A DNA stretch of 64,000 nt from a candidate division LCP-89 bacterium B3_LCP. GTDB lineage: Bacteria; Electryoneota; B3-LCP. The DNA is taken from positions 199,022-263,021 of the forward strand of contig NJBN01000006.1 in assembly GCA_005223185.1 (NCBI GenBank), given 5' to 3'. The notes under the pieces were generated by a model, which was not told the origin of the DNA, did not search any database, and saw only the letters and a list, made by a program, of their open reading frames with translations. Below, piece by piece: positions 59,300 through 61,552 of this stretch. Positions within the stretch are counted from its first letter, which is position 1, and every line of letters starts with the position of its first letter. A program made the position numbers and the translations under genes.

Positions 59300-61423
59300 T
59301 CATTTCATCAATACCATCTTGCCTGATGACGTGAATCCTCCTGCCGTAAGCTGGTAGATGTAGATACCGGAAGAAAGACCAGTACCGTCAAAGGTGATCT
59401 GGTGGGCGCCGGAAGGATAAAATCCCGTAGTCGGGGTCGCCCCTGACCCCGACAAGGGCGAGGCATGCCTCGCCGCTACAATACGCCCGTTTATATCAAA
59501 CACCTTTAGTTCTACCAAACTCGAAACTTGCAACTCGAAACTAAGAATTGTTATCGGATTAAACGGATTAGGATAGACGGAGAGTAGGTGGAAAGTATCC
59601 GGGGCTATGAGATTGGTATTGGCGAAGTTTTCGTGGAAATCTTCACCACTGTTGGTCCATTTATCTATGGTTAATCCACTTTCGGAAGAGCTTAACTTCT
59701 CGAAGGTGAAGGAGTCTGAAGTCCAGGGCTGAGTGGGATGAACTCCCACCCAGGCTTGATAGGTGTATGTTCCCGGGGGTGCCCCGGCAGGTACGTTCTG
59801 GGTGCGGGTGCGTTCGATAGTGAATCCGGGATTCATGCTTAAGGAAACAGGTCCCATCAGGGGACCGAACAAACTGCTATCGGGAAGCAATACATTTATC
59901 CACACATCGTAATCTATCTGGTTGTAAGCTATATTGGAAAGCTCAATGTCGAAATCGAAGCTGCCGCCGGATGCAGGGATTTGAATTGGAGGATTAACGG
60001 GCGTCACTTCCACAGTAATGGGAGAAGGACCGCCTAAACTGCCATCGCTATTGCAGCGCTTGGCGTAGACGTCGCGTCTGGTACTGACCCCCACATGCTT
60101 CTGAAATACAGCTTTTATTCCATCTTCATCATCAGGTAATACGCTGTAATAATTCAAGTCCCACCATTGTTCAGATATGTGTAATATTACCCCTAAATCA
60201 TCGCTGAATTTCCGATTGCCAGCGGAATCCAAAGCATTTGTACACAGATAAATGGGATAAGATGTGCCAGGATTGTAATCGTATAATCCGTAAAAATAGG
60301 GATACTGATAGATGTAATCATCCTGCATGTCGTGATTCCAATCCGGTGGGCTGATAGCCATCAGCGCACCGACATCACTACCCCCCCAAGTAGGCCAGTA
60401 ATTATTTCCAGCAATATCCATTCGCTGGCCATATACACCTGGACCATATATGAAACCAAGATAGAAGAAGCCAGGTTCTCCGGGTACCATCTTGGCGTGA
60501 AAATACCAGCTTAAGTGATCCCTTATCCAGAGAATGTTACCATCACCATCAATGCGCCAATGGGTGTTGAAGTCTGCGCCATAATTTGTCTGTAAGATAA
60601 AACCACCTTCACCGTCTGAAATGACTATGTGTTCCCATACTAAGCCTTCGGTGATATACAGGTCATTCAGCCATAGGATGTTTCCGGCAGAATCTATGTG
60701 CTGAGCGAACAAAGCTGCCTCCGGCCAATAAGGAGGACGACTATCTTCCCAAATTACAAACAGCCCTCCGTTACTGTCATGTGTAATACGTGGATATCTC
60801 GCTGTGACGTCTGGCAGTCCGGCCAATAAGATGCCTTCTTCACCCCAGGGCAGACTGCCATCGCCTTCGATACGCTGTATCCAGAGGTCAGACCAATCAA
60901 GAGCAGATTCATCAGGTGCGGCAGCTAAGTAAAATCCTCCCATGCCGTCCGTGCAAATGTCTCGGTCAGTTTCAAAAAAAGGAAAAACTCTAACGCCCGA
61001 ATCTCCCCAGAGGCAGTTTCCCAAACTATCTAAGCGCTGAGCGTAAATTCCCTCAACACCATCATTCGTCGCATACGATATAATTGCACCGCCCTCATCA
61101 TCGGAAATAACGTCTGATAATCCATTCTCAGAGATATTATAAAAAAGTAGTTGTGGCGTTTCATATTTCAACTGGCCAAACCGATCGATGATTTGGTAGC
61201 AATCACCAAATCCGACTTTGTGGTAAACCACTAACGTCGAACCATCCGGATAGGGCAATGCTTTGGGATTCCATTCCATCGTATCAGGATCAGCAGCGAC
61301 TGGCAGGTTTTCTTCAATGGTAGTGGGCCAGTAGGCGTAGGAAGCCAACGGCAGGAAAAGTAGGATGCTGGAAAGAAAGCAGACCTTGGAAGACATGGCT
61401 GATATTTTGACTAGAATGTGCAT
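59300..61423 (-). CDS. Secreted repeat protein with T9SS sorting domain carrying an in-frame palindromic insert
   Basis: 707 residues from the ATG at 61423; a second ATG at 61396 is the alternative. Both lack a ribosome-binding site, and the first lies directly after a promoter. A signal peptide ends near 32. The body (about 35-480) has propeller-like repeats (ISDDEGGAIISYATNDGVEG; TDGMGGFYLAAAPDE; HDSNGGLFVIWEDSR). An IPASGGSFDF domain (about 495-600) and a sorting domain (YPNPFNP ... KMVLMK) follow. Inside the sorting domain the usual ELVNGWRDAG segment is replaced by ARHASPLSGSGATPTTG-FYPSG, encoded by a palindromic DNA element (59427-59479). The reading frame stays intact. Confidence 0.83.
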   Translation of the reverse strand: MHILVKISAMSSKVCFLSSILLFLPLASYAYWPTTIEENLPVAADPDTMEWNPKALPYPDGSTLVVYHKVGFGDCYQIIDRFGQLKYETPQLLFYNISENGLSDVISDDEGGAIISYATNDGVEGIYAQRLDSLGNCLWGDSGVRVFPFFETDRDICTDGMGGFYLAAAPDESALDWSDLWIQRIEGDGSLPWGEEGILLAGLPDVTARYPRITHDSNGGLFVIWEDSRPPYWPEAALFAQHIDSAGNILWLNDLYITEGLVWEHIVISDGEGGFILQTNYGADFNTHWRIDGDGNILWIRDHLSWYFHAKMVPGEPGFFYLGFIYGPGVYGQRMDIAGNNYWPTWGGSDVGALMAISPPDWNHDMQDDYIYQYPYFYGLYDYNPGTSYPIYLCTNALDSAGNRKFSDDLGVILHISEQWWDLNYYSVLPDDEDGIKAVFQKHVGVSTRRDVYAKRCNSDGSLGGPSPITVEVTPVNPPIQIPASGGSFDFDIELSNIAYNQIDYDVWINVLLPDSSLFGPLMGPVSLSMNPGFTIERTRTQNVPAGAPPGTYTYQAWVGVHPTQPWTSDSFTFEKLSSSESGLTIDKWTNSGEDFHENFANTNLIAPDTFHLLSVYPNPFNPITILSFELQVSSLVELKVFDINGRIVAARHASPLSGSGATPTTGFYPSGAHQITFDGTGLSSGIYIYQLTAGGFTSSGKMVLMK
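59427..59479. repeat. Palindromic repeat element inserted in frame into a coding sequence
   Basis: 53 bp bounded by GTAG and CTAC. It contains a nine-pair hairpin (GTCGGGGTC, 59430-59438 / GACCCCGAC, 59445-59453) and a perfect 18-bp palindrome (GGCGAGGCATGCCTCGCC, 59457-59474). It replaces about five codons of the sorting domain with about seventeen, keeping the frame. The arrangement resembles intergenic palindromic repeats rather than protein-coding sequence. Confidence 0.75.
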
Positions 61424-61458: not shown

Positions 61459-61552
61459 GGGGTTTATTTTTCTGGGGGAATTTGGAGTAAAAAGGGCAGG
61501 GGAAACACCCCTGCCCTACGGTTTGTCGGGTACGACCCCGAAGGTGGGAACT

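Follow-up and report, generated by a model that had tools for sequence, protein, structure and literature searches.

The host gene and its palindromic insert

The stretch of DNA analysed here (the window) comprises 64,000 nucleotides, positions 199022-263021 of contig C4 in a genome of 3.79 Mb (G000). On its minus strand, at 59300-61423, lies an open reading frame for a predicted secreted protein of 707 residues, whose C-terminal part is a T9SS type A sorting domain (59303-59575, minus strand, from the YPNPFN motif to GKMVLMK). The C-terminal profile match places the domain in this class, with 34.1 bits for TIGR04183 (cut-off 23) and 29 bits for PF18962 (cut-off 27), and profile comparison also retrieved the solved T9SS substrate domains 8glk, 8glj and 5hfs. 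Between the second and third predicted strands, the segment 59427-59479 is a dispersed palindromic element through which the reading frame is kept. The first-pass annotation had delimited this element exactly and had recognised that it is in frame. It had also described its two palindromes as nested; they are, however, side by side.

REP A (GTAGTCGGGGTCGCCCCTGACCCCGAC; 59427-59453, plus strand) consists of GTAG followed by TCGGGGTC-GCCCCT-GACCCCGA and a terminal C. It is antisense to the host gene, where it is read as SGSGATPTT. A spacer of three bases (59454-59456) separates it from REP B (GTAGCGGCGAGGCATGCCTCGCC; 59457-59479, minus strand), which is sense to the host gene and, from 59479 down to 59457, begins with GTAG and C and continues with GGCGAGGCATGCCTCGCC. 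The usual form of REP B is GTAGGGGCGAGGCATGCCTCGCC, read as the peptide VGARHASP. Both units are short imperfect palindromes with GTAG at one end, i.e. REPs of the GTAG class, and they face each other so that the tags form the outer ends of the element. As a BIME is made up of at least two REPs that alternate in orientation and are joined by a short linker, the element is a hybrid BIME, formed by two REPs of two families and located in frame in the loop of a sorting domain. The dispersed copies of the units and the occurrence of the B+A composite at other loci are in line with this assignment. Allowing up to three mismatches, each palindrome occurs once in the window versus 0.02 and 0.00 times in shuffled sequences, and the strand carrying the element folds better than its shuffles (z -3.1). 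These values, together with the dispersed copies relative to a reversed control, eliminate a chance palindrome.

On the protein level, the element is a replacement of the loop. The inserted peptide, (A)ARHASPLSGSGATPTTG, puts about 18 residues in place of the usual six or so, a net gain of 12 residues. The in-frame exchange of the loop had been anticipated, as had the absence of the element from the remaining sorting domains of the window, which have the canonical length of 79 residues. Full-length homologues in two genomes of the same GTDB family (G004 and G005) are devoid of the element, while the homologue in a third (G002) has a different insert at this position. Hence, the proposed comparison of orthologues yielded plain absence in two cases and another occupant in the third, and the segment is neither unique in its genome nor conserved in distant orthologues. 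With homologues being 39-44% identical, there was no pair of nearly identical genes with and without the element to compare.

A hairpin scan revealed another GTAG-tagged hairpin, of a different REP-like family (GTAGGGCAGGGGTGTTTCCCCTGCCC; 61494-61519, minus strand), 70-96 bases upstream of the host reading frame. Similar sequences of the form GTAGGG(C)GGGGGTGTTTCCCCC are found beside REP A copies.

REP families and associated transposases

Copies were gathered by pattern search and from sequence stretches. With at most two stem mismatches, about 50 REP A copies are present in the genome and none of the reversed pattern; REP B has 13 copies, and a third family, REP C (GTAGGGGTCGGTCTTGCGCCGACCC), has 38. 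Since reversed controls for the three families gave only 0-2 matches in 3.79 Mb, these are true dispersed repeats with tens of copies. The predicted dispersal thus holds for both halves of the element, and the copies are found both between and within genes. Most of them keep the GTAG tag. Variants of the REP A stem alter both arms together (GTCGGCGTC/GACGCCGAC), and those of the REP B stem are likewise paired (GACGCATGCGTC and GATGCATGCATC), the pattern to be expected where the hairpin is the relevant feature. REP A is likewise common in four of the five other genomes of the GTDB family (G001, G003, G004 and G005) and is present in two genomes from other families of the phylum (G015 and G011); the 22 genomes examined from beyond the phylum do not contain it. 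REP B is present in G001-G004.

Ten genes for Y1 (IS200-like) transposases were found in G000. One of them (L086:3551-4015) is situated between inverted REP A copies and scores 79.2 bits with the RAYT model NF047646 of NCBIfam (cut-off 80). This gene is 5'-truncated, and with its N-terminal part missing the genome's own REP A RAYT may be inactive today. A 47% identical, intact RAYT from G015 (L172:1369-1824) has inverted REP A copies close by on both sides, the first immediately before the ATG and the second within a few bases after the stop codon; it reaches 103.2 bits with the RAYT model versus 24.5 bits with the IS200 model. Next to its truncated RAYT, G000 has a second one (L086:1458-2000), which scores 96.9 bits, matches the solved TnpA_REP 4er8 with E 3e-7 and lies between copies of its own family, REP C. 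All three loci have the architecture of a REPtron, a RAYT between two inverted REPs of the same family, and RAYT genes in other REPtrons are flanked by inverted REPs as well (PMC2817692). No RAYT adjoining REP B was found in G000. A cousin of REP B (GTAGGGACGAGGCACTGCCTCGTCC) flanks a RAYT-like gene in G010 (L148), which with 63.2 bits is below the cut-off. Among the Y1 transposase matches examined in G001-G005, none was a RAYT with REP A alongside. Hairpins of a fourth REP family (GTAGCGCGGGGGCTTGCCCCCGC) are repeated on either side of a RAYT-like gene (L089:1427-2099).

In other REPtrons, single-stranded REPs are bound and cleaved by TnpA_REP, for which GTAG serves in recognition or as a guide (PMC8266576). 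In analogy to these published cases, it appears probable that RAYTs have moved the elements described here. The features shared with the known GTAG REP/BIME systems are the GTAG beside a GC-rich palindrome of 7-10 bp, tens of copies, inverted pairs, hybrid pairs belonging to two RAYTs, and a RAYT between inverted REPs (PMC2817692, PMC3733652, PMC8266576). What sets the present case apart is its occurrence in the candidate phylum LCP-89, an unusually large intragenic share, and the concentration in a single protein domain. There is also a relationship to IS200/IS605 elements, as these employ Y1 (HUH) transposases related to RAYTs and have hairpin ends with a guide tetranucleotide; yet the element in the window has no open reading frame of its own, and the cognate gene is of the RAYT rather than the IS200 type by the scores given above.

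Two loops of the sorting domain as insertion sites

REPs take their name from lying outside genes. About 36 of the 50 REP A copies are located outside convincing genes, whereas the majority of REP B (11 of 13) and of the REP C copies examined (19 of 30) are located in sorting domains, each time in the same loop after the NGRxV motif (site i). The 14 REP A copies in convincing genes are all in sorting domains, six of them at site i and eight in the final hairpin, which precedes GKMVLMK (site ii). At five further loci (L022, L034, L040, L047 and L049) REP A is covered by long open frames that look upstream or spurious and were left uncounted. Given that sorting domains account for approximately 1-2% of the genome, an accumulation of 14 of the 50 copies there has a probability of 3e-17 to 2e-12. 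All 14 copies are antisense and use a single frame, giving SGSGATPTT or something close to it, even though four of the six frames through REP A are open. A phase-free pattern placed before the GKM motif retrieved 22 REP A copies from four genera, and every one of them is in phase. REP C is found at site i in both orientations and in three frames, read as VGVGLAPTR, VGSAQDRPLR and SGRRKTDPYA.

Composite elements recur as well. The B+A arrangement is also present in L004, L008 and L009 and in sibling genera (L215, L216), and L002, L005 and L012 contain REP B together with an antisense REP C. In L003 and L011 the half of the loop downstream of REP B is of the canonical INGWRDAG type, and these two domains look like recombinants or separate entries. 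Altogether, the same two loops carry the same insertions in four sibling genera. Sorting domains of sibling genera with REP-like inserts in both loops simultaneously were also noted (L193, L197, L202). Moreover, the linkers upstream of the sorting domain in L226 and L242 contain REP-like peptides, e.g. GVDSEGARSAPLQD and VGAQHAAPLHG, so that further positions of such proteins may carry REPs.

In AlphaFold models, the site i peptide forms an unstructured loop between the strands at residues 19-27 and 50-53, with pLDDT below 50 for residues 35-46, and the site ii peptide forms the turn joining the last two strands (residues 72-80). According to these models, extra residues should do little harm in either loop, which fits the idea of tolerance. 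That the loop accommodates additional residues had been presumed in the first-pass annotation, and both the comparison of domain lengths and the predicted disorder speak for it. A Foldseek search with the loop i model returned only weak Ig-like matches, including the T9SS domains 8qb1 and 8glk.

Insertion, inheritance and probable turnover

Codons used for identical residues provide a measure of the relative age of the REPs and their host domains. Between REP A-bearing domains, same-residue codon identity is 93% within the REP versus 45% in the flanks, and it is still 92.5% versus 39% when the flanks are restricted to G, S, T, P and A residues. The separate values for REP and flank are 97/53 for site i, 89/50 for site ii, 89/56 for REP C and 91/53 for REP B. 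As the REP codons are far more alike than those of the flanks, the REP DNA is either younger than the divergence of the domains or held uniform by conversion or hairpin-level selection.

A tree was built from 149 sorting domains with the loops removed (about 165 bases). Carriers at site ii occupy eight tips and require eight changes, the same as with random labels, i.e. the gains are scattered. At site i, all 30 REP-bearing domains belong to one supported clade of 31 (93/94), which requires two changes versus 27.5 with shuffled labels, and within this clade the REP type switches at least 11 times. We read this as one or two early entries, probably followed by turnover through new insertion or recombination. 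An independent insertion of every loop i copy, which we had considered, was withdrawn, as the tree unites the loop i carriers in one clade. Domain duplication or recombination therefore contributes to the spread in this loop. Plain gene duplication as the whole story was dismissed on the basis of the codon comparison and the scattered site ii carriers, but it is still a contributor at loop i.

We thus arrive at the following model, to which we assign a probability of roughly 0.85: the insert in the window is a hybrid BIME in a sorting-domain loop that was mobilised by RAYTs and survived by tolerance, with turnover at loop i. A RAYT (TnpA_REP, REP-associated tyrosine transposase) would recognise single-stranded REP hairpins together with their GTAG tag, cut them and join them into new sites. 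Selection would remove insertions from ordinary genes, and sorting domains, which are very abundant, would retain them in two loops at their surface whenever the frame is kept and the resulting peptide is harmless and rich in Gly, Ser, Thr and Pro, or otherwise tolerated. At loop i, one clade of sorting domains would have taken up such an element early, and the REP types may since then have been swapped or combined by new insertions or by recombination between domain copies. The observations themselves are the repeats and their GTAG tags, the RAYT linkage, the in-frame positions, the similarity at the DNA level and the clade pattern, whereas mobilisation by the RAYT, survival by tolerance and turnover at loop i are inferred.

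It is also conceivable, if clearly less probable, that the host alone accounts for the spread, i.e. that a REP entered a sorting domain once or twice and was then multiplied with it by gene duplication and by recombination or gene conversion between sorting domains, with no recent transposition. Such a scenario would explain why the loop i carriers share one clade with so few changes, why some domains look chimeric (L003 and L011 with their INGWRDAG-type half behind REP B), and why tandem genes at C16:92-108 kb have REP C in common. Plain duplication would not, however, make REP codons so much more similar than adjoining ones, nor would it scatter the site ii carriers over the tree. Furthermore, a single loop holds three REP families in both orientations and three frames, and most REP A copies are intergenic, beyond the reach of domain recombination. 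A conserved protein loop whose DNA is palindromic by accident, with no mobile element involved, would be compatible with the recurrence of the peptide in many paralogues, but it is practically untenable: the approximately 36 REP A copies outside convincing genes refute it, and both the codon-level identity and the G004 and G005 homologues speak against it.

Rather unlikely, in our view, is the notion that the REP-derived loops have been put to use, such that the loop i clade represents a distinct class of sorting signal in which the loop matters for recognition or anchoring. None of the 31 domains in this clade has gone back to a canonical loop, three REP families have arrived at the same place, and one frame is favoured for REP A; on the other hand, the loop is predicted to be disordered, there is free variation in its sequence and in its length (16-30 residues), and it is absent from 115 of the 149 domains. 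In general, a use of such loops by the cell is possible, if unsupported. Little more probable is a broader idea in which REPs are a standing source of new secretion-signal loops, RAYTs or recombination at their palindromes continually swap the peptides of a large clade of sorting domains, and the loops serve as variable tags on secreted proteins.

The first-pass annotation had likened the element to the Rickettsia palindromic elements (RPEs), which are likewise palindromic, dispersed and found in frame within proteins that tolerate the extra loop. Despite this similar behaviour, we consider a RPE or a RPE-like element highly improbable: the element has a GTAG tag and an association with RAYTs, whereas RPE-4/6 belong to the CGTC class, which has no reported link to a transposase, and RPE-1 inserts are longer (PMC3733652), the comparison being one of published descriptions rather than of aligned sequences. 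Membership among the RPEs was accordingly rejected, and the GTAG REP/BIME and RAYT system takes their place. The event had also been regarded as rare. In this genome it is commonplace, and intragenic GTAG REPs have been published for several species, among them Opitutus terrae; they are in frame in proteins and often form dimers of 20-30 codons (PMC3733652). The authors of that study suggest a neutral insertion in loops or linkers. Those published REPs are distributed over many unrelated proteins, with emphasis on DNA repair genes (PMC3733652), whereas the ones described here are located at two loops of one domain, where REPs were gained repeatedly and probably turned over.

REPs, RAYTs and intragenic GTAG REPs as such are already known. 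As far as we could find, what is new is the reuse of two secretion-signal loops by three REP families, apparently in LCP-89 only. A search of 84,980 species for the site ii pattern, in a set that perhaps did not include G000 itself, retrieved only three MAGs, of which one bears the name candidate division LCP-89, and we found no report of REPs in T9SS sorting domains in the open-access literature. Three REP families have been built repeatedly into two export-signal loops in five genera of one candidate phylum, and in this way numerous proteins with predicted export now incorporate mobile palindromes. Filled and empty domain copies in one genome amount to an insertion scan made by nature in the T9SS sorting domain, and the genome can be used to trace the selection and retention of sites by RAYT elements. 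The set of cargo proteins is itself very large for a candidate phylum: G000 encodes at least 150 T9SS-type sorting domains in 3.8 Mb, with scoring of the best 150 of 338 candidates.
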